From the IMG/VR virus record IMGVR_UViG_3300035704_000008, positions 1 to 64,000 of that record: a stretch of 64,000 bases of DNA, one strand, 5' to 3'. Under the pieces are notes generated by a model that did not search any database, was not told the origin of the DNA, and saw nothing but the letters and a program-made list of their open reading frames with translations. The position numbers and the translations under genes are program-made. Origin of the DNA: a virus. Numbering within the stretch: position 1 is the stretch's first letter; every line of letters begins with the position of its first letter. Below, in pieces: positions 2,491 to 55,929 of this stretch.

Positions 2491-5400
2491 TCACCGCGAC
2501 CCGAACGCTGTCTGCACGTTGCCGCCGCCCTTGACCTTCACGTTCTTCTTCATCCAGGCGAGCATGAACGCGTCGAAGGCGCTCCCGGAGGAGGCCACCT
2601 CGAACCGGATGGTCGCGGCGCCGCCCTGGGCGGGCACGAGGTGCTCGGGCCGGCCGGTGCCGTTCCACACCGGGTTGAACCCGGGCCGCAGCGTGCCGCC
2701 CCGGTCGAATACCATCCCGCCGCGGGCAGCACCCGTGAACGGGCCGAGCGCCGACGCCAGGACCGTGCCCAGGTTGTTGGCGACGTCGCCGCCGTAGGTG
2801 TGGGTCGCCTGCACGCCCGTGGCCGGGGGCGCAGGCTTCACCGGCGGCTTGTGGGCGGCCAGGTACGCGTTGGAGTAGCCGAGCATCTTGCTGATCGCGG
2901 TGACGGTGGCCTTGTCGCGGCCCAGCTGCGCCTTCCAGTCTTTGACCGGCCCGGCGAGGGACTTGAGGTTCCCCGCCGCGCGGATCTCCTTGTCGAGGCC
3001 GAGCTCGTTCAGGCCGAGCTGGGTGCGCCAGGCCCGTTCGGTGGTCAGCTCCTTGCCGTACGTGGCCAGCAGCCGGGACTCGCTCGCCGCCGTGTTCGCC
3101 CAGAACCGGTGCTGCCCGGCGGACAGGCCGCCCGCCCTGGATAGTGTCCGGGCCCGGCCGGCTGCGGCGGACATCGCGGCGATCTGCTGGTTCAGGACCG
3201 TCGGCCCGATGGCCAGCCCGTACGGGCCGCCGTGCCGGGACTGCCACGCCTTGAGGTAGGCGGCGCCCTGCCCGGCGACCCCGCCGGACGCGTACCCGGG
3301 GACCAGGCCGCCGAGCGCGTAGCCGTGGCCGGAGCCGATGCCGCCGTACTGGTTGCCCAGCTGCGGCCCGTACACGTGCCGGGCGTAGTTGATCGCCGCG
3401 GCGATGTTCGCCAGCGGATCATAGATGTTGCTGCTGGTGCCGGGCCAGTGGTAGGCGCGGAACGTGGACCCGATGACCTGCATGAGGCCGCGGGACGGGT
3501 CGCCGCGCTGCGCGTTGATGTCGGTCAGGTTGATCGCGTTCGGGTTGCCGCCGGACTCGGTCTGCATCTGGTACAGGACCCGGGAGTCGAACGCGGTGGA
3601 CAGCCCCTCCATGCGGAGCGCCTGGTCGACGGTTCCTTTCCACCGGGCCACCCCGGAGCCGACATTGGGGACCTTCGAGGAAGTGATCGCGGCGGCCTTG
3701 GCCTTAGCCGCGGCGGCCACTGCCTTCTTCAGGTTCGCGAACTCGGCGCGCAGCAGGGCGGCTTCCGCGGCCTGGCCGAAGTTGTATTCGGCGTTCGCGG
3801 CGAACGGGGTCAGCCCGGCGATGCCGCCGCCCGCGAACCCGGGGATCCGGCCGCGGAGGTTGTCGGCGGCACCCGCCTTCACCATGTGCGCGGGCACGAC
3901 CAGCTCGCCCCGGCTGAGCATGGCGGGCACGTCGTCAGCAGTGGGGCCAGTGCCCTGCCTGATAATGCCGCCGCTGGCCAGGGACTTCAGCGAGAAGCCG
4001 CCCGAGCTGATGGAGGCGGCGACCTTCTGGGTGAACGTCATCCCGCCGGACCCGGACGCGTGCACGCCGACGTTGACGGTCTTGCCGTGCATCGCGTTGA
4101 TCGACCGCTGCAGCCCCTGGATGCCGCCGGAGACCCGGCCGACCTCGCCGAGCAGCGGGGACAGGTTCTGGGTGCGGACCGCATCCGACTTCGCCCCGGC
4201 CGCCCGCAGTGCGCTCAGCATGGTGCCCTGGATGGTGCCGGCCAGCCCCTGGATGCCGCCGGAGACCCGGCCGACCTCTCCCTGCAGCGGGACCAGGTTC
4301 TTCGTGCGCAGGGCGTCGGCGGAATCCCCCGCATGACCGAACGCGACGGCGGCCGCGTGCCCGATGCTGGAGAAGAACCCGCCGACACTGCTAGCGAAAC
4401 CCTGAGCCCACAGTTTCGCGCCGGACCCGACGTTGTTCAGCGCGCCGCCGACCGGCTGGCCGATCTTCGTGGTGAGCCAGGCTTCCAGGCCGCCGAACGT
4501 GAACGAGTGCAGCAGCGACGTCGACCACAGGTGCCCGTCGGCCTGGAACTGCGCGTTGAGCCGCCCGGCGAACGTCCCGGCCGGGGACAGCGTGTCCCCG
4601 ACCCCGCGGATAAGAGCCCCGACGATGACGCCGGCCGCAGCCGGGCCGAGCGCGGCCCGGAACGCGGCGAGGAAACCGCCGCCCGCAGCCTTGCCGGCCA
4701 CGGCACCGGACCCGGCCGCCCCGGCCAGCCCGCCGCCCCCGGCCGCGACGCCTCCGCCGGCCATCGCCGCGCGGATCTCCGCCGCCGCCGCAGCGCCGCC
4801 GGACGCGAACGCCGCCCGGATCTCCGCCCCCACGGCGGCACCGCCGCCGATGTTGATCACGCCGCCCGACAGCCACTTCAGCGCCGGGCCCGCGATCTTG
4901 ATGCCGACCTTCAGGACACCCGTCTTCTGCAGCAGCAGAAGCGCCCCCGCCACCTCGGTCAGCGGCTTCGCGACGGCCTTCGGGGTCCGCGCCAGGAAAC
5001 CCAGGAAATCAGTGACCAGCCGCAGCTCGAGGGTGCCCGCGCCCGACAGTCCCGGCGCGAACGCCGCCAGGACACCGCCGAGGTTCTTCAGCAGATCCTT
5101 GGTGACCGGCCCGTTGGCGCGGATCCAGTCCAGGAACACGGTCACGTCATGCCGGGCCGCCGCCGACTGGGACCAGCGCAGGAACGCGCCGCCCCACTGG
5201 TCCAGGTACACGCTGAACGCGCCGAAATCCACGTTATGCCCGGCCAGGTCACGGCCGAGATTGAGAACAGCCTTCCCGATATCGGTGAAGAACACCCCGA
5301 GAGCGCTGAGCTGATCCGCGGAGAACGCGCCGAACGCCACGGCGAGGCGCCGTATCTCCGCGGATCCCGCGCTGGAGGAGAAGTACCGGCTGACGGCCTC

Positions 5401-10545: not shown

Positions 10546-11426
10546 AGGAACGCCTCGCTGATGAACGGAACGCCGTTCTGGGAGCCGTTGAGGAGCTCGG
10601 CGGCCATGTTCGGGATCGCGAACCCGAATCCGGGCACGGTCACCATCTCGCCGCCGCCCATAGGGAGCGCAGCGGGACCGCGCTGACTCGTCCACAAATG
10701 GGCCAAAACGATCCGGGCGAAGCTGTTGAACGCGGCCGGGACGGTCGTGCCCCACCCGGCCACGTAGGTGGGATAGCAGACGGGCAACCAGGCGAAGAAC
10801 GGCCCGTAGAAGGGCAATCCCAGCTTCCTGCGGATGGTTCCGGCGTTGACGTCGAGGTCGAGGCCGCCGGAGATGTCGATGTTGCTGCCGCTGGCTGAGG
10901 CGATGCTGGTGACGGAAACGAGGGGCCGCTGCCGGACCAGGATCACGGTCTGGTTCGACATCATCTCGGCGCGTTCGGTCACCACCCGGTTGACCAGCGG
11001 CCCCCCGGTCGCCCGCTCGAGGCTGGACTCGATGGTGGCGATGTACGACTGGATCTCGGCGTCGGACGTGGTGGTGGCCTGCGGGATGTTGAGCGCGTCC
11101 TTGGCGTCCTGCAGCGGCAGGACCGACGTCTCGAAGGGGTCGAAGACGTCGAATTCGCCGAAGGAGACGCCCGCGCCGGTGCCGGTCGCCGTCCACGTGT
11201 ACTGGTAGTGACCGGTCGCGGTCAGGTCGGTGACCGGGATGTCCTGATGGTAGGTGCCGGTGGAATCATTGGCAGGGCTGGCGTAGGTGCCCGTGGTCGC
11301 TAGCGTGCCGTCAGCCTGCGCCAGCTTCACCAGCAGGGTCAGCGTGGTCGCGTCGACCAGGGCGCCGCTAGCGTCCCGGACGGTGGTCGACACACGTACT
11401 GGCTGGCCTTGCGGATAGCGCGCCAT
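10542..11426 (-). CDS. Head-tail connector (gp6-like) with N-terminal Ig-like domain
   Basis: 294 residues. Residues 1-100 form a beta-sandwich-like domain (MARYPQGQPVRVSTTV ... YQYTWTATGTG). Residues about 105-294 carry the gp6-type connector pattern (LPLQDAKDALNIPQATTTSD, EIQSYIATIESSLERATGG, then FARIVLAHLW). The connector ring joins portal to tail. The N-terminal segment is duplicated as a broken gene at 13261-13487, with a 51-bp identical DNA tract, so the domain appears to be a mobile module. Confidence 0.75.
   Translation of the reverse strand: MARYPQGQPVRVSTTVRDASGALVDATTLTLLVKLAQADGTLATTGTYASPANDSTGTYHQDIPVTDLTATGHYQYTWTATGTGAGVSFGEFDVFDPFETSVLPLQDAKDALNIPQATTTSDAEIQSYIATIESSLERATGGPLVNRVVTERAEMMSNQTVILVRQRPLVSVTSIASASGSNIDISGGLDLDVNAGTIRRKLGLPFYGPFFAWLPVCYPTYVAGWGTTVPAAFNSFARIVLAHLWTSQRGPAALPMGGGEMVTVPGFGFAIPNMAAELLNGSQNGVPFISEAFL
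11303..11353. repeat. 51-bp direct repeat, copy A
   Basis: Identical over 51 bases to 13347-13397. It encodes part of the Ig-like domain (TLLVKLAQADGT) in the connector gene, showing recent duplication or gene conversion. Confidence 0.85.
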
Positions 11427-23446: not shown

Positions 23447-23723
23447 CGATTTGTTACCCGCGCCTCTTGGTGCGCGGGGCCAGGTCATTTCTGCCTGGCT
23501 CTGCACCTTTGCCATCGGTGCAGACCGGACTGTAACTTCACCTGCGGTCCATCGCCCCTATTGCACTCGGGGCGCGGCCCATGTCACAGGTGCCACACGC
23601 TCAGTCTCTACGGAACCCTGTAGTGCGAGGTTTCCACGGTATTCCCCACGATCTCGGAGGGGTTCACCGTTACGGTGCGGTTTTCACTGACCGATCACTC
23701 GGTCAGGCGGCCAGTTCAAATTG
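23447..23723 (-). ncRNA. Group I self-splicing intron in the capsid gene
   Basis: 277 nt between the capsid exons. The exon before it ends in U (GGU) and the intron ends in G, as in group I introns. The core reads GUAGAGACUG (minus strand of 23602-23611) and GGUGAAGUUACAGUCC (ending near 23527), matching the conserved R and S elements. GACUG (23606-23602) pairs with CAGUC (23532-23528) to form P7. Perfect hairpins include 8 bp at 23687-23706 (P2-like) and 7 bp at 23501-23523 (P9-like). The U at the 5' splice site pairs weakly in P1 (U-A rather than U-G as I fold it), so the exact P1 is uncertain. No ORF inside. Confidence 0.85.
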
Positions 23724-25076
23724 ACCGGACTGTCCTGTCGGGAGGTTGGCGCTGGCGCCCGTGCCGGTCACCATCGGCTCGTAGATGATGCTGACCCCCA
23801 CGCGATCCACGATGTAGTAGTTCGAGAAGTCCCCGAACACCATCGGCTTGTGGGTCGTGGTGAGCACCGGGTCGATGGAGCTGGACTCGTAGATGGGCTT
23901 GCCCATCAGCTGCTCCGGCTGGTCCTTGCCCAGGTTCGTCCAGAAGCTCGCGCCGCCAGCGGTGTCGAGCGCCCGGGTCCGGTTGATCTGCGCGACGTTG
24001 GCCACCCACGCGCAGTTCGGGGAGTTCCTGAACCGCGGGGGCAGCGCCGCGTGCAGGGTGTACACGTCGGCCAGGACGTACGCGCCCGTGGTGGCCGTCG
24101 TCTGGGTGGTGGTCGCGCCGACCACGACGCCGGTCGGCTGCGCCGTGCCGGTGCCCGTGGCGAACGCGGCCTCTTCGAGCCGGTCCTTGGCGTCCGCCAG
24201 CAGGCGCGGGAGCTGGGTGCCGAAGTCGGTGTCGGACAGGACCTCGAACGACCCGAACACCCAGGCAGCGGCCTTGAGCGGCGTGATGACGATGTTCCCG
24301 ACGGTCGGGGACGCGTCGGCGGTGGCGACGCCTTCAGCGAGCCACGCCGCGGTGACGCCGGCCGACGTGACGCCGTTCCACGTGTTCGACGTGGTCGTCT
24401 TCACGTTGGAGATCCGCCGGTACGGATTGGCGGACGCGTTGTTCGTCAGTACTATCGTTGGGTCCAGTACAAACGGAAGGAGGTATCCACCTGATGCGAC
24501 ACCCAGGTTCAGGGCGGCGCGGGCCGCCATGTCGTCGGGGTTCGCGATGTACTTCGCGAACGCGTCGTAGTATTCCGGCGACCCGGTCTCCAGGATGTGC
24601 CGGGCGATGTTGTTCTTGGAGAAGTAGCCGCCGTCCTGGACCTTCCTGGTGGCTTCCTCGGCGAAGTCGTGGACGACCATGCCCCGCTTGGCGACCTGCT
24701 CGATCGCGTCGAGGGCCCGCTCGCGGAGCTCGCCGGAGGGCATCATGCCGTCCCGGGCGCGCTGCAGCTCGGCGAACGGGTCGCGGTTGTTGCGGATGAC
24801 CAGGTCGGGGCCCTTGCCGCCGTTCCCGGCGCGGCTGGTGCCGTAGGGCCGTTCGAGGTTCGCCTCGTCCTCGGTGGCGGTGCGGGTGATGGACTTGATC
24901 TTTTCCATCCGCTCGATGATCGGCTTGGTGAGGCCGTCGAGCTGTTCCCACCGGGCGAGGAGGGTGTCGCGGAGGTCACCTTCGTTGTCCTCGGTGACGC
25001 TCTCGTCGTTCTCCATCCGCTGGAGTTCGTGCTTGATCCTCGCCATCTCGTCGAGGTATTCCTGCAGCGCGGCCAT
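23724..25076 (-). CDS. Major capsid protein (HK97 fold), exon 1
   Basis: 451 codons. Residues 1-110 are a charged helical scaffold-like delta domain (MARIKHELQRMENDESVTED). Then comes the HK97-type shell domain with SGGYLLPFVLDPT, NPYRRISNVKTTTSN, AAWLAEGVA, AWVFGSFEVLSDTDF, NCAWVANV and GKPIYESSSID. Unspliced, translation stops after six intron codons (to 23703), losing the C-terminal strand. The delta domain is normally removed by the protease encoded just upstream. Confidence 0.93.
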
Positions 25077-25097: not shown

Positions 25098-26420
25098 TTA
25101 CCAGACCAGCCCGGCCTTCTTCCGTGCCTCCTCGGAGGTCATGCGGTAGAGGGCGTGCTGGTGATACCGGGCCGAGTGCTCGTCACCGTCGGTGCGGGTG
25201 AGCGGCTCACCGGCGGCGGCTTCCTCATCTGGGGGAAGTGCCTCGTCGTGCTCGTCCGGCTCCGGGTCGCCGAAGGCGCCGGGAGTGGACATGCGGACGC
25301 CGAGGATCTCGGCGCCGCTGTACGCCTCGAAAGGCGTCGGGCCGAACTCTTTGAGGCCCAGCTCGTGGCGGCGGACCGTGGTCAGCTGGCCGCCGCGGGG
25401 GTAGTGCTTGTCACCGCGGCGCAGCTGCGGGTCGGAGCGGACGATCCGGCCCGTGAAGGACTGGGCGGTGATCGACCCGTTCCGGATGTTCTCCAGCACC
25501 TCATCAGCGAACGGGGTGTCTGAGTACCGGGCCAGGGTCAGCAGCCCGCGGGCCTCGGGACGGATGTCCACCGGGGTGGCGATCGGCATCGACCCGCGCT
25601 CAGACGGGGTGCCGTGGATCGTCATGCCGTGGTTGTACATGACCTTGACCTTGCCGAACCCGGCCCGGGACCGGCCGATGTCGGCCAGCACCTTGTTGAA
25701 CGCGGCCGGGTCGATCTCCTCGATGTAGTGGCCCTCGAAGTCCTGGATCTCGGCGGGGGCGTTGAACGCCGTGGCGTACGCCTCGACGAGCCGGCCCGTA
25801 CTGTCGCCCTGCGCGGCGCGGACGATGTGGATGTCCTCGAGCTCGTAGGTGCGGAAGTACACCGCCTCGGCGCGGGACGCGCTGCTGCTGCTGCTGTTGT
25901 CTGCCACGTCGTGCCCGTGCTTGCCCATGGCTGCCTTGATCTTCCCCTTGATCGCCGATAGCTGCGCCGGCGTGTACTGGCCCGCGTTCTTGGCCTGGTT
26001 GATGTAGGACCAGGCGGCCGTCACCTTGTCCGCGGACAGGGGGTACCGCTTGACGCCGGGCTTGCCGGACTTGGACGCCTGGTTGCCGTCGGCGTCGAGG
26101 TAGCCGGGGTCGCCGTAGTCCACGCTGGTGCCATAGGGAGCCTTCGTGTCGGTCGCCATGGCCGCCCTTCCTGCCTTGTGTTCCATTGCCGCGTGGGTCG
26201 CCGGCCAGATGCCGAGCGCCGCGTGGTGGGCCTGCGCGCAGTAACCCTTGGGGTCTTTGATGAACTTGCCGAGGTGCATCACGCACCGGTCGAAGTCGCC
26301 GCCCTCGCCCCACCGGATTTTCGCGGCGCCCTCGCCGTGGACCCAGTACTCGTGGAGCCGTTCGGTGCCGCCCGGGTTGGTGACCTGCCCGCCGGCGCGG
26401 ACCGCGCCCGTCTCATCCAC
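25098..26420 (-). CDS. Prohead protease with N-terminal DUF6582-like region
   Basis: 440 residues from GTG 26420. Residues 1-90 (YWVHGEGAAKIRWGEGGDFDRCV, in part) match a small-protein motif common near phage proteases. Residues about 95-170 (GYLDADGNQ, KRYPLSADKVTAAWSYINQ) look like DUF6582. From about 185 onwards lies the HK97 prohead protease (FRTYELEDIHIVR, YATAFNAPAEIQ, YNHGMTIHG, NGSITAQSFTGR with the serine). It matures capsid in the prohead. A three-part fusion, longer than typical proteases of about 200-250 residues. Confidence 0.85.
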   Translation of the reverse strand: MDETGAVRAGGQVTNPGGTERLHEYWVHGEGAAKIRWGEGGDFDRCVMHLGKFIKDPKGYCAQAHHAALGIWPATHAAMEHKAGRAAMATDTKAPYGTSVDYGDPGYLDADGNQASKSGKPGVKRYPLSADKVTAAWSYINQAKNAGQYTPAQLSAIKGKIKAAMGKHGHDVADNSSSSSASRAEAVYFRTYELEDIHIVRAAQGDSTGRLVEAYATAFNAPAEIQDFEGHYIEEIDPAAFNKVLADIGRSRAGFGKVKVMYNHGMTIHGTPSERGSMPIATPVDIRPEARGLLTLARYSDTPFADEVLENIRNGSITAQSFTGRIVRSDPQLRRGDKHYPRGGQLTTVRRHELGLKEFGPTPFEAYSGAEILGVRMSTPGAFGDPEPDEHDEALPPDEEAAAGEPLTRTDGDEHSARYHQHALYRMTSEEARKKAGLVW

Positions 26421-26425
26421 CGCTG

Positions 26426-26959
26426 CTACCAGTCCAGCCCGGCCGCGGCGCGGAGTTCCCGCGAGCGGAGCAGGTAGTCGGCGTGCCCGGCCGCCGTGTC
26501 CGCCGAGTCGCGGTGAACCGGCTTCGGCGCAGGGGCCGGCTTCTTCGGCGCCGTGTGCACGGCGGGATGCGGGGCGGTGTGCGCCGGGGCGTGCTTCGCC
26601 GCCGGGTGCCTGGTCCGCAGCGCCGCCGTCGTCAGCGGGCCCACCAGCCCGTCGACCTTCAGGCCGTGCGACTTCTGGAACGCCCGCACCGCCGCGAGGG
26701 TCTTCGGCCCGAAGATCCCGTCAACCTTCAGGGGCGGCTTGAACCCCAGCGCGTTGAGGCGGGACTGCAGGTCCGAGACCCGCTTGCCGTGCTCGCCGGT
26801 GCCTACCGGGTGCTGGTTGGTCGGGGTGGGGCGGGCGTCCTTGCCCTTGGCGGCGCTGCTGCTGCCGGAGGCGGCGGCGAACTGGCCGCCGGCCGCGCTC
26901 CCGGCGGGCGCGTGGAACTTGTTGAACCGCTCCGCGTCGGACGACCATGTGTCAGGCAT
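26426..26959 (-). CDS. Peptidoglycan-binding-domain protein in the head module
   Basis: 177 residues from ATG 26959 (GAGGG ribosome site); ATG 26992 is an alternative. The N-terminus (ERFNKFHAPAGSAAGGQFAA) is the head-morphogenesis motif often fused to protease or scaffold genes. Residues about 60-125 form a PG-binding-1 domain (VSDLQSRLNALGF, VDGIFGPKTLAAVRAFQKSHGL). Next comes an Ala/Pro/His linker and an end (LRSRELRAAAGLDW) resembling the protease C-terminus. Possibly packaged in the head or linked to cell-wall binding. Confidence 0.75.
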   Translation of the reverse strand: MPDTWSSDAERFNKFHAPAGSAAGGQFAAASGSSSAAKGKDARPTPTNQHPVGTGEHGKRVSDLQSRLNALGFKPPLKVDGIFGPKTLAAVRAFQKSHGLKVDGLVGPLTTAALRTRHPAAKHAPAHTAPHPAVHTAPKKPAPAPKPVHRDSADTAAGHADYLLRSRELRAAAGLDW

Positions 26960-27063
26960 GGCGTGCCCTCGTCTCCACTTACCGGCTCCCATCGTCTCCG
27001 TACGTCTCCCGATGCCGGCTACGCTTACCCGTCATACGCATATTGCGGAAAGGAAGGTGCGTA

Positions 27064-27645
27064 GTGACAGGCAAGCAAGACGCCCAGGAGGTCAAGCTGG
27101 CAGGCTTGGCCGTCGAGGGCCTGAAGCTCCGGCTGGTCGGCACATCAGCGCTGATCGTCCACAAGTGGAGCGAGAAGGCCAAGAAGCAGATGCTCGACAA
27201 GCAGATGAAGCGGGCATCGCAGGGCAAGGCCGCCAAGGACCCGGAAGAGGACTACCGGGAGTCCCTGTACATCCGCAGCGACGGCTCCTACGGCTTCCCG
27301 GCCGTGGCGTTCAAGGCCGCGGCGGTGCGGGCGGGCACCTACTGCGACATGAAGATGGTGTTCCTGCGCGGCGCGTTCCACGTCGAGGGTGACCTGGTGC
27401 TCATCGAGGGCGAGCCGGAGCCGCGCGAGGATATGGTCCGCGTGGGCATGGGCACCGCCGACATCCGGTACCGGCCGCAGTTCCCGAAGTGGGCGACTGA
27501 GCTGGACATCACGTTCAACAACCGGGCGCTGACGGCTGAGCAGATCGTGAACCTCTTCGAGATCGCCGGGTTCGCGGTCGGGGTCGGCGAGTGGCGGCCG
27601 GAGAAGGACGGGCAGTTCGGCCGGTTCCAGGTGGAGACCCTCTGA
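27064..27645 (+). CDS. Uncharacterised phage protein, array-associated, RAMP-like pattern
   Basis: 193 residues from GTG 27064 with GGAAGG upstream. Basic N-terminal half (LIVHKWSEKAKKQMLDKQMKRA) and a conserved-looking core: YGFPAVAFKAAAVRAGT, GAFHVEGDLVLIEGEP, EDMVRVGMGTADIRYRPQFP, ending GFAVGVGEWRPEKDGQFGRF. The alternation of strands and the glycine-rich last block (GVGEWRP...G.FG.F) recall RAMP/Cas7-type nucleic-acid-binding folds, but this is a pattern impression only. First gene of a plus-strand cassette between protease and portal, directly upstream of a second gene and a 0.63-kb pentamer array. Confidence 0.75.
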   Translation: MTGKQDAQEVKLAGLAVEGLKLRLVGTSALIVHKWSEKAKKQMLDKQMKRASQGKAAKDPEEDYRESLYIRSDGSYGFPAVAFKAAAVRAGTYCDMKMVFLRGAFHVEGDLVLIEGEPEPREDMVRVGMGTADIRYRPQFPKWATELDITFNNRALTAEQIVNLFEIAGFAVGVGEWRPEKDGQFGRFQVETL

Positions 27646-28112
27646 TGGGCGCTTACCAGTTCAAGTCCGGCGCGCACATCCCGAAGTCCGTCACCCCGGA
27701 GGGCGTGATGGAGGAACGCGACCGGATCGAGCACGACTACGGCAAAGTCACCATCGAGCACGCCGTGGATGCGGTCCTCAAGCATCCGGAGAAGTACCCG
27801 AATCTCCGCGCGTTCGGCCCGGCCGACGAGGGTGCCGCGATGCGGCAGGGGATCACTGAAGGTATCCGGCGGGCGTTCCGGGCCGTGGTCATCGTCCGGG
27901 ACGACGAGCCGAAGCCGCAGGCTCAGGCACGGCAGATCCGGGTGCTCCACAACGTCCAGGATTCCGCCGGGGACCTGGTGTACCGGCCTATCACGGCGAT
28001 CCGGCAGTCACCGGATCAGCGGAAGTACCTGATCGGGCAGCTGCGGCGCGACGCGGCCCTGTTCGCCGACAAGATGCGTGACGTGCTGGCTGAGGTCGAG
28101 GAAATCACCTAG
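27645..28112 (+). CDS. Uncharacterised phage protein, array-associated
   Basis: 155 residues, ATG overlapping the previous stop by one base, so coupled to the first cassette gene. It starts YQFKSGAHIPKSVTPEGVMEE. An N-terminal helical half (KVTIEHAVDAVLKHPE) is followed by IRVLHNVQDSAGDLVYRPITAI and a long C-terminal helix (QLRRDAALFADKMRDVLAEVEE). I recall similar two-part proteins in other phages, without a known function. Its stop codon TAG provides the first G of the pentamer array. Confidence 0.75.
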   Translation: MGAYQFKSGAHIPKSVTPEGVMEERDRIEHDYGKVTIEHAVDAVLKHPEKYPNLRAFGPADEGAAMRQGITEGIRRAFRAVVIVRDDEPKPQAQARQIRVLHNVQDSAGDLVYRPITAIRQSPDQRKYLIGQLRRDAALFADKMRDVLAEVEEIT

Positions 28113-28744
28113 GCAGGCGAGGCGGCGCAAGGCACGGCACGGCTAGGCCGGGCGTGGCTAGGCAGTCGGGGCGCGGCGTGCCCTGGCAAGGCGAGTCGTG
28201 GTGAGGCTGGGCGTGGCGTGGCTAGGCAGGCGAGGCCAGGTGCGGCCTGGTAAGGCCCGGCGCGGCATGGCAGGCATGGCGAGGTCCGTCCCGGCGCGGC
28301 TGGGCTAGGCCGGGCGTGGCAGGCGGGGCGTGGCCCGGTGAGGCACGGCCTGGCTGGGCCGGGCTTGGCGTGGCAGTCAAGGCACGGCTTGTCGTGGCGT
28401 GGCGTGGCTTGGCACGGCCGGGCTGGGCGCGGCAGTCAAGGTATGGCTCGGCATGGCGTCGCGGGGCTAGGCGCGGCTAGGCAAGGCACGGCAGGCGCGG
28501 CGCGGCGGGTCCGGGTGAGGCGTGGTCGGGTTTGGCGCGGCATGGCAGTCAAGGCTCGGCTAGGCCCGGTCGGGCTGGGCGCGGCTTGGTCGGGTCAGGC
28601 AAGGCATGGCAGGCGTGGTCAGGCGCGGCGGGGTTAGGCACGGCCAGGCGAGGCGTGGTGCGGTATGGCGCGGCAGGCATGGCTGGGCGTGGCTCGGCAC
28701 GTCGTGGCGGGGCCTGGCCCGGTTGGGCGTGGCTCGGCAGGCGG
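28112..28744 (+). repeat. Degenerate GGCNN pentamer array in 11 units ended by GGCA
   Basis: After an initial GGCA (28112-28115), the sequence parses without gaps into 116 pentamers of form GGC+NN. At 11 places a four-base word GGCA breaks the phase. Units begin at 28116, 28165, 28229, 28273, 28322, 28376, 28435, 28494, 28548, 28612 and 28676, and the last ends before 28740, giving lengths 49, 64, 44, 49, 54, 59, 59, 54, 64, 64 and 64 (8-12 pentamers plus 4). 87 of 116 cores are exactly GGC; the others are single changes (17 GGT, 9 GTC, 2 CGC, 1 GCC). Fifteen of 16 dinucleotides occur in NN; AG never does. It is not coding (period five) and abuts the convergent portal stop. Confidence 0.95.
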
Positions 28745-30178
28745 TCACATGCGGCCGTTCAGCGTCAGCTCTTCCGCCCGCCGGGCGCTGGACGGCCGCG
28801 GCGTCGGCCTGCTCCCATCGCCGCCGCCACCCGGCGAGGTCGGACCCACGCCGAGCCGGGGCATCGTCGGCGGCAGCGGATCAGCAGTCGCCCCCGGCGG
28901 CGTCTGCGGCAACATGTGCTGCACCGGCTGACCAGGCACCTGCGGCGGCACCGCAGCCGCTTTCAGCTGCGTCAAATCCATCGAGTCAACCGCGCTGATC
29001 GCGCTCATCGGGTCATATCCAGCCTGGTGAAGCGCCAGCAGCGCCTGCGCCCTGACCAGCGCCGCCTGGCCGCGCTCAAGCTCGCCATCGGCCAAAGCAG
29101 CGATGTCGGACGTGTCGAACCACAGCCGGTTGCCCGCCGGGACGTCCACGATCTGCGACAGAGCCCCGCACACTGACCGCCACGCCGGACGCGCCCACAG
29201 GTTCGCAAGTTTTTGCATGCTTTCCTGGTAGCCGCGGCCGGCCCCGCGCAGGGGCTCGAGGCCGACCAGGACACCCGGCACCTCGCACGCCGCCAGGATC
29301 CGCTCCGTGCCCACCGCCGACACGCCGCTGAAGTCCATCTGCGACAGCGAGTTGCCGATGATCGTCGCGTCGGCGCCCTGGTCGAGGACGAGGGTCTTGA
29401 ACGCGTTGTCGGCGCCGCCGTACCGGGCCTGCATCCGCTCCCGGATCGCGTCCACGGTGCCCGACTGGAGCTTCTGCGCGTACTTGATCAGCAGGTTCGG
29501 GGAAGCATTATTGGTCAGGTACCGGATCTTGTACGTGGTCAGGCCGTCGTCCCCGGCGATGTCCCGGGTAATCGGCGTCAGCGGGGACATGCCGCGGAAG
29601 TCGGCCGCCGGGTCGGGGACCGGCGCCCAGTGGACGCACTCATCCGCCGGGACGAGGAACCCGTCACCCTGCTCCATCAGCGACTTCGGCGGCTCCCACC
29701 AGTAACCGACGACACGCCGGTACCGGCCGCCGCCGCCGACATGGACCTCCTCGGACACGATCGTCGTCCAGTCCGGCCGCAGCCTGACCAGCCGGTCCTC
29801 ACCGGGGGCGTCCCACACGTAGGCGTTCCCGGCCAGGAACTGGTCCTGCTCCATCCGCGCCAGCAGGTAGCCGGTCGTCGACGGGGGCCCGAACGGGACC
29901 TCCAGCTTGGCCAGGCTGGTGTTGCCGAACAGGTGCTTGTCGTCTTTGGCCTGGTACTGGAACGTCGCCTCGGAGAACAGGGCCATCCGGGCGAGGAGCG
30001 CGGCGAAGATGACCGCGTTGGACGAGCTGGCCTGCTGGGCGTACGCGGCCAGCTGCGGCAGTACCGGTTCCCGGTCAGGGCCGGCGTAGGAGGTGGTCAG
30101 GACGGACGCGCCGGACGCCTGGCCCTCCCAGAACGTGTCCCCGTAGCGGCGCAGCAGCCGGTCAACCAGCCGCGTCAC
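28745..30178 (-). CDS. Portal protein (HK97 family)
   Basis: 477 residues from GTG 30178 (GTGA overlap). It has the portal order: SNAVIFAALLARMALFSEA, FQYQ, LLARMEQDQFLAGNAYVW, DWTTIV, CVHWAPVPDPAADFRGMSPL, TNNASPNLLIKY, LDQGAD, GTERILAACEVPGVLVGL and LWARPAWRSVCGALSQIV. It forms the dodecameric ring at the packaging vertex. The last 90 residues are Pro-rich. The pentamer array begins right after its stop. Confidence 0.92.
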   Translation of the reverse strand: MTRLVDRLLRRYGDTFWEGQASGASVLTTSYAGPDREPVLPQLAAYAQQASSSNAVIFAALLARMALFSEATFQYQAKDDKHLFGNTSLAKLEVPFGPPSTTGYLLARMEQDQFLAGNAYVWDAPGEDRLVRLRPDWTTIVSEEVHVGGGGRYRRVVGYWWEPPKSLMEQGDGFLVPADECVHWAPVPDPAADFRGMSPLTPITRDIAGDDGLTTYKIRYLTNNASPNLLIKYAQKLQSGTVDAIRERMQARYGGADNAFKTLVLDQGADATIIGNSLSQMDFSGVSAVGTERILAACEVPGVLVGLEPLRGAGRGYQESMQKLANLWARPAWRSVCGALSQIVDVPAGNRLWFDTSDIAALADGELERGQAALVRAQALLALHQAGYDPMSAISAVDSMDLTQLKAAAVPPQVPGQPVQHMLPQTPPGATADPLPPTMPRLGVGPTSPGGGGDGSRPTPRPSSARRAEELTLNGRM

Positions 30179-30442: not shown

Positions 30443-30949
30443 TCAGACGGCCCAGACGCCCGGCTGCGCGAGCTCCTCCCACCGGACGAACGCCCAGCAC
30501 GCACCCGTAGCCGCCACCAGCGGAGACTGATCAGTCGCCACCTTCGGATCCCACGCCTGCGCACCCGCCAGCGGCCTTTGCTCACCCGCCCGCACCGCAG
30601 CGGTAAGCGGCGGCTGGTCAAGATGAGCCATGCCCCCGCCATTGACGAGATCCAGGAATTCCCCGTGGCCGACCGCGACATCCTGCGCCGTCAGCAAGGT
30701 CACCAGGATCCCCGCCTCGGCCAGCGGCTTCACCAGCGTCCCGGACTGCGACTTCGGGTTCACCACGACCGCCACCGGGTCATGCTTCTCACTCAGGCCC
30801 GTCAGCCGGGCCACCGCGCCCCGCGGATGGTCATACCAGACCAGATCCACCACGATCCGCACGCCGCCCTGCTCACGGCCCGCCGCGACGATCGCGCAAT
30901 GCTTCCGGTCCTCGCTGATCGCCGCCCCGAACGCGACCTCGCCGCTCAC
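30443..30949 (-). CDS. Terminase large subunit, nuclease part
   Basis: 168 residues from a GTG that overlaps the stop of the ATPase gene (GTGA). It begins SGEVAFGAAISEDRKHCAI, the first strand of the RNase H-like terminase nuclease with the first acidic residue, followed by IVVDLVWYD, PVAVVVNPKSQSG and HLDQPPLTAAVRAG ... PLVAATGACWAF. In most phages this is the C-terminal half of one protein. Here the halves are separate but adjacent, probably coupled by termination-reinitiation. Confidence 0.8.
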   Translation of the reverse strand: MSGEVAFGAAISEDRKHCAIVAAGREQGGVRIVVDLVWYDHPRGAVARLTGLSEKHDPVAVVVNPKSQSGTLVKPLAEAGILVTLLTAQDVAVGHGEFLDLVNGGGMAHLDQPPLTAAVRAGEQRPLAGAQAWDPKVATDQSPLVAATGACWAFVRWEELAQPGVWAV

Positions 30950-31887
30950 AGCCGCACACCCGGCGCGGCCGCCGCCGACCACGCGTCCTCACCGACCACG
31001 CCCCACCCCGGCTTCGCCACATCCGGCCACTGGCACAGGTACGCCCGCCGGAACTCGGGAAGCTCCATCAGCTCGTAATCGGCGCGCACCGTTTCCTCGC
31101 TGACCGTGATCCCTAGCGCGGGCATCCGCCGCCGCCACGTCGCCGGGTCCGCCGGGTCCTCGTCGTCGGCCGCCGAATACCCGATATAGCAGCCGTTCTC
31201 CGTCACGCCCATCTCCGCGCGGGCCCGCCCGTCATCCACCTTGCCCCGGAAATACTCCGACTGCTCCGTGCCCGCCGCGGACACCACCCACAGCTGCGCG
31301 TCGCGGGTCATCATCGCCGGGCGCATCGCCTGCTCCAGGTGGTCGTCGCGCTGCGCCCACGCCTCGTCGATCACGCCCAGGTCGAGCACGTCGCCGTGAC
31401 CGGACGTCTGCGTGTTGGATACCAGGCCCAGCATGGAGCCGTTCTTGAAGATCAGCGCCTCCGACCCGGAGCCCCGGCGGATGTCGATGAACGGCGCGAG
31501 CTTGCTCCGGGCGATACGCGGCCACCACACGTCCAGGAGCCGGTGACGGGCGTCCAGCCGGGTCTGCGCCGTGTAGGCGATCTGCGTCCCCGGCCGCCGC
31601 AGGCCCCGCGCGATCATCATCGACAGCAGGTCCACCGTCTTGCCCTGCTGCCGCATCACCTCGATCACGACCTGCCGGTACGCGAACCGGCCGAGCGGGT
31701 CGAGTTCAGTCGTGATGCCGTTCGCCTCGTGCTGCCACGGCATCAGCCCAGGACCCAGCGACGTACGGAACTCAAGCAGCTCAGCGGTCTTGCTTATGCC
31801 AGCGGCCAGGTTCGGCCGGCTGGTCGCCGGGGTGCAGAACCTAGGCCTGCAGGGCGCCGAAAAGTCCCGTGAGATCGGCATCGGCAT
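30946..31887 (-). CDS. Terminase large subunit, ATPase part
   Basis: 313 residues. It has the adenine-binding region (MPWQHEANG), a Walker-A-like VMRQQGKT, GTQIAYTAQTRLDARHR, Walker B LGVIDEAWAQRD, and coupling motif VVSAAGTEQS. The frame ends with AWSAAAAPGVRL and TGA at 30946, where family members continue into the nuclease domain. It packages DNA into the prohead with portal. The start at ATG 31887 overlaps the small terminase by 47 bases. Confidence 0.88.
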   Translation of the reverse strand: MPMPISRDFSAPCRPRFCTPATSRPNLAAGISKTAELLEFRTSLGPGLMPWQHEANGITTELDPLGRFAYRQVVIEVMRQQGKTVDLLSMMIARGLRRPGTQIAYTAQTRLDARHRLLDVWWPRIARSKLAPFIDIRRGSGSEALIFKNGSMLGLVSNTQTSGHGDVLDLGVIDEAWAQRDDHLEQAMRPAMMTRDAQLWVVSAAGTEQSEYFRGKVDDGRARAEMGVTENGCYIGYSAADDEDPADPATWRRRMPALGITVSEETVRADYELMELPEFRRAYLCQWPDVAKPGWGVVGEDAWSAAAAPGVRL

Positions 31888-55102: not shown

Positions 55103-55549
55103 GTGACCATGCCACCCGAGCCGCCATCAGGGCTCATGGCGGTCGGCCCGCGCGAGTGGATGAACGTGTGGGCCCGGGTGATCGCGCCGCCCTCAGTGAA
55201 GCTCACCGGCGTTATGGCCGCGTATTTCGCGGACTATTCCACGGGTGCGGAAATACGCCCGGGAAACGAGATCCTGGCCGCCGTGTCCGGGCAGCTGGAC
55301 AAGCGGACGGTAATGAAGGCGCTGGCTCAGATAAGGGAATGGGGATTGATATGGCGGTATTCGGAGGGGCGTTTGCAGGGGCGGCGGGGAATGGCGGACG
55401 TGTACCGGCTGACGGTGCCGGCGGACGCTTTGGCGATGATCCCGATGCTTGACCCGGACTACCGCCACCCTGTGGATAACTTCAACGGATCAGGTGATCT
55501 CAGATCAGGTGATCTCAGATCAGGTGATCTGAATGCTCGGAACAGGTGA
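55103..55549 (+). CDS. Replication initiator-like winged-helix protein
   Basis: 148 residues from GTG 55103. VIAPPSVKLTGVMAAYFADYSTG, EIRPGNEILAAVSGQLDKRTVMKALAQIREWGL and ADVYRLTVP form a winged-helix domain like phage or plasmid initiators. The last 25 residues (NGSGDLRSGDLRSGDL) are encoded by the iteron repeats. The next gene looks like the usual C-terminal zinc domain in another frame. Confidence 0.7.
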   Translation: MTMPPEPPSGLMAVGPREWMNVWARVIAPPSVKLTGVMAAYFADYSTGAEIRPGNEILAAVSGQLDKRTVMKALAQIREWGLIWRYSEGRLQGRRGMADVYRLTVPADALAMIPMLDPDYRHPVDNFNGSGDLRSGDLRSGDLNARNR

Positions 55550-55574
55550 TCTCAGTGCACGGAACAGGTGATCT
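55491..55574. repeat. Iterons, five copies of CAGGTGATCT; candidate origin
   Basis: CAGGTGATCT at 55491, 55506, 55521, 55543 and 55565. The first spacings are 15 and 15, the later ones 22 and 22 bases. Each contains the GGTGATC half of a palindrome completed at the end of the array (GGTGATCTCAGATCACC, 55567-55583). Iterons within an initiator gene are a classic origin layout (as in lambda O). Confidence 0.8.
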
Positions 55575-55929
55575 CAGATCACCCCACCCATACCAGTACC
55601 TAAACCACCTACCCAAGCCACAACTCGAGGTTGCCGTCCGCACACCTGCACCTGGAAGGGGGGCAAAGTTGTCCACAGGCACGACGGAAAACCGGGATGG
55701 CGGCCAGCCCCCCGAATGGTGCGGGCAATGCGATAAACGAACCCGGCACCTGAATACACCCGGCGGTCCCGTTCGCTGCGCCTGCCACCCGGACGGCAAG
55801 CTCCTACGACAGCACCGCATTTGTCCTCGCTGCCGGTCGGTCATTCATAAATGGGACCGCAATAGATGCGAAAGCCATATCCCCGTCAGGAGCGCCGCGT
55901 TATGGACGCCGCGGAAAAGAATGCCGTAA
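55546..55929 (+). CDS. Zinc-finger protein, probably detached C-terminal part of initiator
   Basis: 127 residues from GTG 55546 (overlapping the previous stop). The first 60 codons cross the iterons and are Pro-rich. The rest (PPEWCGQCDKRTRHL, VRCACHPDG, ICPRCRSVIHKW) is a double CxxC zinc domain like those at the C-terminus of actinophage initiators. 22-bp repeat changes shift the frame, so the two genes may once have been one. Confidence 0.6.
   Translation: MISVHGTGDLRSPHPYQYLNHLPKPQLEVAVRTPAPGRGAKLSTGTTENRDGGQPPEWCGQCDKRTRHLNTPGGPVRCACHPDGKLLRQHRICPRCRSVIHKWDRNRCESHIPVRSAALWTPRKRMP

Follow-up and report, generated by a model that had tools for sequence, protein, structure and literature searches.

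A non-coding array of GGYNN pentamers in the viral DNA studied here is very probably the guide array of a complete VIPR (Viral Interference Programmable Repeat) system, made up of the gene vipr, the accessory gene vap and an array of guide RNAs (vrRNAs), which an actinophage-like virus would aim at rival phages. The array occupies positions 28112-28744 of a stretch of 64,000 nucleotides (positions 1 to 64,000 of IMG/VR record IMGVR_UViG_3300035704_000008), which we call the window. VIPR as a kind of system is already known. According to the main text of a 2026 preprint (PMC13142463), VIPRs reside mostly in phages and prophages and fall into seven types with accessory genes vap1-6; they consist of phage-encoded RAMP proteins (Vipr) and guide RNAs of alternating GGY and NN, and DNA is read with one base skipped between dinucleotides. 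The guide region described there has about 9-16 pentamers, in which GGY is conserved and NN hypervariable, and the experiments reported on other VIPRs comprise an RNA-protein complex, binding of double-stranded DNA, repression and phage inhibition.

The pentamer array and the vipr and vap genes

The array and its two adjoining genes lie on the same strand, with the following features.

28112..28744, + strand: vrRNA guide array, 11 units, each of 8-12 GGYNN pentamers, with GGCA in between
27064..27645, + strand: vipr, 193 amino acids, GTG start, ribosome site GGAAGG at 27052-27057; PHROG family phrog_4652 (function unknown there)
27645..28112, + strand: vap (accessory), 155 amino acids; its start overlaps the vipr stop codon (ATGA)
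28672..28675, + strand: GGCA word 3' of guide unit 10; the unit-10 target match ends at such words
28112, 28161, 28225, 28269, 28318, 28372, 28431, 28490, 28544, 28608 and 28736, + strand: start positions of the remaining GGCA words

The periodicity had been described in a sequence-only reading of the window, and parsing of the array reproduced every number given there: 116 pentamers in 11 units (9, 12, 8, 9, 10, 11, 11, 10, 12, 12 and 12 pentamers in order, or 49, 64, 44, 49, 54, 59, 59, 54, 64, 64 and 64 bases with GGCA included), an exact GGC core in 87 of the 116, and register shifts that are without exception 4-base steps at GGCA. The other 29 cores are one base off, mostly GGT or GTC, and because GGT is the commonest variant the core is better given as GGY. 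Each of the 16 possible NN words occurs. The stop codon of the preceding gene overlaps the first GGCA by one base (TAGGCA, 28110-28115), and the array parse found nothing except GGCA between units and no obvious separate 3' tail in any of them.

The autocorrelation check proposed in that reading gave a lag-5 self-match of 0.59 for the array, against a window mean of 0.28 (standard deviation 0.04). Eight consecutive GGCNN with up to three mismatches were found 54 times in the window, always inside the array and on the + strand, and in none of 100 dinucleotide shuffles, so that shuffled sequence does not reach a similar phase. Nor do relatives carry irregular filler at this place: a search by similarity to Vipr in viral contigs, bacterial genomes and isolated Gordonia and Mycobacterium phages supplied 99 loci, of which 81 contain a GGYNN array in the orientation of vipr and 0 contain one on the opposite strand. 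CRISPR repeat-spacer structure was not found in the array region, where the pentamer array lies instead, and no cas operon stands beside the array, whose adjoining genes are vipr and vap only. The array had rightly been called neither coding, nor a microsatellite, nor CRISPR.

A profile of the vipr family, built from 30 relatives and compared with the whole PDB, returned a sole significant entry, 36pp ('SUSP1 Vipr protein', E=3.6e-13), in an alignment that covers profile positions 16-188, nearly the entire protein. The AlphaFold2 model of the window Vipr had a mean predicted local distance difference test (pLDDT) score of 87, and a structure search with this model placed Csm3 of type III CRISPR complexes and other Cas7-like RAMPs closest (best E=3.2e-6). 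Three significant matches were obtained in a viral library, one of them annotated as a RAMP superfamily protein. Profile and predicted structure together argue that the gene at 27064-27645 encodes Vipr, a small (~20 kDa) RAMP homologue. SUSP1 Vipr, although homologous over almost the whole protein, is a distant relative, and the preprint's main text gives its guides as RNAs of about 100 nt whose 3' tail is folded (PMC13142463). The product of vap showed weak yet consistent homology to the gene 3' of vipr in almost every related locus; of 33 aligned members, 29 matched phrog_15946 (unknown function), and a fold search of vap against the PDB gave no convincing match. PADLOC had no family for either vipr or vap.

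Decoding of the guides

Guides were decoded by writing the NN pairs of each unit with one free base between them and searching both strands. A clean test compared 400 unique units with 4.1 Mb of sequence (both strands counted) in which arrays had been masked and whose targets had been fetched by protein homology, never by guide sequence; loci fetched by guide pattern, including those fetched with a guide of the Mycobacterium phage Donkeykong, were left out together with duplicated arrays. With one base skipped, 12 units had a match at E<0.03, compared to 0, 3 and 3 units at skips of 0, 2 and 3 bases, and to 0, 2, 2 and 1 units in four order-shuffled sets. An initial scan of guides against loci had given a slight excess only. 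In the matches that were checked in reading frame, the skipped base was codon position 3, the wobble position. These results point to recognition of targets with a one-base skip. Three of the window's guides, and for two of them the counterpart sites in its own genes, are listed here.

28612..28671, + strand: guide unit 10, GT CA GC GG TA AC CA GA GT GC AT GC
28994..29029, - strand: own portal at the unit-10 counterpart site, HQAGYDPMSAIS; 11 of 24 guide bases mismatch
28229..28268, + strand: guide unit 3, GA CA GC CT AA CC GC AT
31312..31335, - strand: own terminase at the unit-3 counterpart site, EQAMRPAM; 3 of 16 guide bases mismatch
28435..28489, + strand: guide unit 7, the sole unit in common with the related locus L001; the two versions differ in two dinucleotides at the 3' end

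Unit 10 gave the best match of the whole clean test, agreeing at 22 of 24 bases with the portal gene of sister phages (one such target reads, in codons, GTG CAG GCC GGG TAC ACG CAC GAG TCG GCG ATC GCG, VQAGYTHESAIA). Sites with at most two mismatches numbered 16, or 8 once shared sequence was masked, and only 1 of 2500 order-shuffles of the unit scored as well. Unit 10 thus appears, from the decoded sequence, to read a conserved portal stretch of sister phages and to spare the virus's own diverged portal. The match spans the entire unit and ends at both GGCA words, and neighbouring in-register pentamers do not extend it; the same was seen for a guide of a Rhizobium prophage (locus L081, below). 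Because both matches stop at unit borders, we take GGCA to delimit guides. As a separate observation, both mismatches of unit 10 fall inside a single dinucleotide (GT against TC), and in the match of the L081 unit at 11355-11409 both mismatches likewise fall in one dinucleotide (TA against GG).

Unit 3 agreed at 15 of 16 bases with the sister-phage gene for the terminase large subunit (target peptide EQAVKPAM). Since 3 to 4 of 60 shuffles scored equally well, this target is suggestive only. When the window was searched with its own guides at skip 1, the best match of every unit left at least three mismatches. When 2.9 million viral contigs were searched for exact matches to the first nine NN pairs of unit 7, none was found, and an exact scan with the Donkeykong guide gave 7 matches that were taken as chance, as they lay in low-GC contigs and their flanking pairs did not all match.

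Related arrays and their targets

When the family arrays were parsed with equal penalties for 4- and 6-base steps, steps of 5 bases occurred 5366 times, of 4 bases 614 times and of 6 bases 15 times. GGCA made up 75% of the 4-base words, whereas A was the first N in only 32% of cases elsewhere, and the commonest unit lengths were 8-12 pentamers. The NN that follows GGCA at the start of a unit was AA, GA or AT in about half of the units of all arrays, a bias that weakened deeper into the unit. The closest relative, L001, has a Vipr 97% identical to that of the window, and 1 of the 11 units is in common. Two isolated phages of the genus Cheoctovirus, the Mycobacterium phages Donkeykong (L098, 2999-3344) and Brocalys (L099, 3112-3344), carry GGCA-punctuated arrays beside a vipr gene that is annotated as hypothetical, and their arrays differ by the presence of complete units, which suggests that whole units are the item of exchange between arrays. 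In the Pseudomonas phage LESphi2 (L100, 3097-3391), which has a distant Vipr homologue, several short GGYNN blocks lie upstream with ordinary sequence between them, a candidate for another array layout.

Guides of these arrays also matched virion genes. The L001 unit at 4684 (14 pairs) agreed at 26 of 28 bases with L260, where the match falls towards the C-terminal end of the coding sequence for a divergent portal, with none of 60 shuffles as good; the portal region that it addresses is the one addressed by unit 10 of the window. For L081, a Rhizobium leucaenae prophage, targets were looked for by a guide-pattern search in Rhizobium genomes. One of its guides agreed at 20 of 22 bases with the portal gene in two further Rhizobium genomes, and a second guide at 16 of 16 bases with a gene in one of those prophages that was judged capsid-like from its sequence, a match that had not been used for fetching. 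A second guide of L058 agreed at 18 of 18 bases with a tail-protein-like gene, and two guides of L003 gave weaker matches in capsid and terminase-like genes. The targets found, namely the portal of sister phages and the portal and capsid of prophages, lie in competing mobile elements. Another guide of L058 (5185) agreed at 19 of 20 bases with the vap gene of other VIPR loci (L049 at 4894, L055 at 4867, L057 at 4849, and L076), a match that reads as VIPR directed against VIPR.

Proposed mechanism, alternatives and genome setting

For this phage, transcription, repression and the binding of RNA and of DNA are inferred from published work in E. coli. By that analogy, transcription of the array from the + strand would yield guide RNAs, each unit between two GGCA words being one guide, and Vipr, which is related to the Cas7/Csm3 backbone proteins, would form a coat on the RNA in which each GGYNN pentamer holds one subunit. 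The free NN pairs would pair with double-stranded DNA, with one target base skipped between pairs. As the 4-base GGCA disrupts the 5-base register, the row of Vipr subunits would be interrupted there and the guide would start or end at that point. The RNA may be cut at this word, or neighbouring guides may overlap at it. Binding at the portal gene of a rival, either a superinfecting or a co-resident sister phage, may block transcription of that gene and prevent virion assembly and hence virion production. Both main suggestions made from the letters alone, a punctuated register of two-base words and a scaffold on which a protein with a footprint of 5 nt would sit, were essentially right: NN is the message, GGCA separates the guides and the pentamer is one guide-RNA unit in VIPR.

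Several points weigh against assigning the array to a VIPR system aimed at rivals. Around the array neither a sigma-70 promoter nor a terminator was found, a scan of 26800-29000 gave no Rfam family, and the units have no obvious separate 3' tail, unlike the SUSP1-type vrRNAs of PMC13142463 as the main text presents them. Unit 10 carries two mismatches to its target, both within one dinucleotide; 9 of the 11 window units have no target in 1.5 Mb of non-redundant sister-phage sequence; and the RNA and binding side is carried over from the E. coli VIPR work. Regarding the tail, the main text reports an invariable folded 3' tail after the repeats in the SUSP1 type and does not call it required for all seven types; it also mentions 'staggered arrays with overlapping vrRNAs', which may be the layout seen here (PMC13142463).

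The nine units with no known target would suit a VIPR array whose guides work chiefly inside the virus that carries it or inside that virus's host, and some RNA-guided systems do control their own genome. We consider such self-regulation improbable, since matches within the window at skip 1 leave at least three mismatches for all units, the own portal site differs from unit 10 at 11 of 24 bases compared to two in sister phages, and the targets found for other family arrays are in foreign prophages and in vap genes of other VIPR loci. It is very improbable that the matches are a coincidence of conserved GC-rich phage coding sequence, with the specificity of the array lying elsewhere: although codon-like composition favours chance matches and the unit-3 match is individually weak, with 3 to 4 of 60 shuffles equalling it, order-shuffled guides of preserved composition seldom score as high, the excess is present at skip 1 only, two sister arrays match one and the same region of portal genes that belong to different lineages, and one 28-base guide matches at 26 of its bases.

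The strong one-strand G bias and the strict 5-base phase could also be read as an element that acts at the DNA level, such as a packaging, partition or recombination site, or a former of G-quadruplexes or R-loops from periodic GG steps. This reading deserves hardly any credence, because a gene for a RAMP-fold protein is the constant companion of the array, a single, specific skip rule turns the NN words into real sequences and models of this type leave the 4-base punctuation without a role; the target matches largely refute it. R-loops or two-layer quadruplexes, which had been suggested along with the periodicity, are unsupported as a function; Vipr binding would account for the G-rich cores. 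Coding, microsatellite, CRISPR and G-quadruplex readings of the array were all considered and dropped.

The VIPR cassette lies in a virus record of 64.9 kb, between portal and endolysin-like genes, where vipr, vap and the array (+ strand) interrupt a block of phage head genes on the - strand.

26961..28774, no strand assigned: whole cassette, 1.8 kb, an insertion as judged from alignment of the window to sister phages
28745-30178, - strand: portal
26426-26992, - strand: endolysin-like
25098-26420, - strand: protease
23703-25076, - strand: capsid
30946-31887, - strand: terminase

In L117 and L145 the site is empty, with flanks only 18-19 bp apart. The cassette is cleanly absent from L117 and L122, in which the targeted portal site is present, and L119, also a carrier of the target, has ~0.4 kb of different sequence at the cassette position. 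The terminase large subunit is spread over two overlapping frames on the - strand (30443-30982 and 30946-31887), one for an ATPase part and one for a nuclease-like part. Because the ATPase frame of L124, a sister phage, is about as short (288-1226), the split may reflect a conserved frameshift or an arrangement of two genes rather than a sequencing error. Elsewhere in the window, two adjacent tandem repeats of 15 and 22 bases at 55488-55578 have CAGGTGATCTCA in common.

The system of the window shares with the published VIPRs its phage origin, a small RAMP-fold Vipr with an accessory vap adjoining vipr, a non-coding array of GGY/NN pentamers (8-12 per guide here), the one-base skip on the wobble position and guides that are in some cases directed at other VIPR loci. 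It differs in that its guides are contiguous, with GGCA alone between them and apparently no tail each, and in the targets found, which are packaging and virion genes of sister phages (portal, terminase, capsid), whereas the main text of the preprint names satellites and lysis-lysogeny regulators (PMC13142463). With class 1 CRISPR-Cas (Csm3/Cas7 backbone) it has in common the RAMP fold found by structure search, periodic protein subunits along a guide RNA and several guides per array, but here there is neither a cas operon nor CRISPR repeats. Moreover, VIPR pairing is gapped every 3 target bases, the VIPRs tested according to that main text do without a protospacer adjacent motif (PMC13142463), and copying a target could not yield a VIPR guide, since five guide bases, of which two are informative, stand for three target bases.

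Tentatively, and with somewhat less than an even chance in our view, GGCA-punctuated arrays that have no tail represent a distinct VIPR architecture in which the shortened pentamer is the guide border, and in which guides are quickly renewed to track the packaging genes of the closest relatives, portal above all, so that siblings are excluded and self is spared. Since targets cannot serve as templates for guides, such renewal would imply some other route to new guides. The role of the GGCA punctuation and the choice of packaging genes of relatives as targets are probably new, and part of this may already be contained in PMC13142463 beyond its main text.

The analysis of raw sequence independently confirms a guide-RNA code that was not published until 2026, and guides from a VIPR member of the actinophage type are decoded. 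It gives the GGCA punctuation a role as guide borders, ties two PHROG families of unknown function to VIPR (phrog_4652 as Vipr and phrog_15946 as vap) and places portal and capsid genes of competing phages among the targets. Isolated Gordonia and Mycobacterium phages with the same layout make the system testable in the laboratory, and the question of how guides are renewed when copying from targets is impossible has become concrete.
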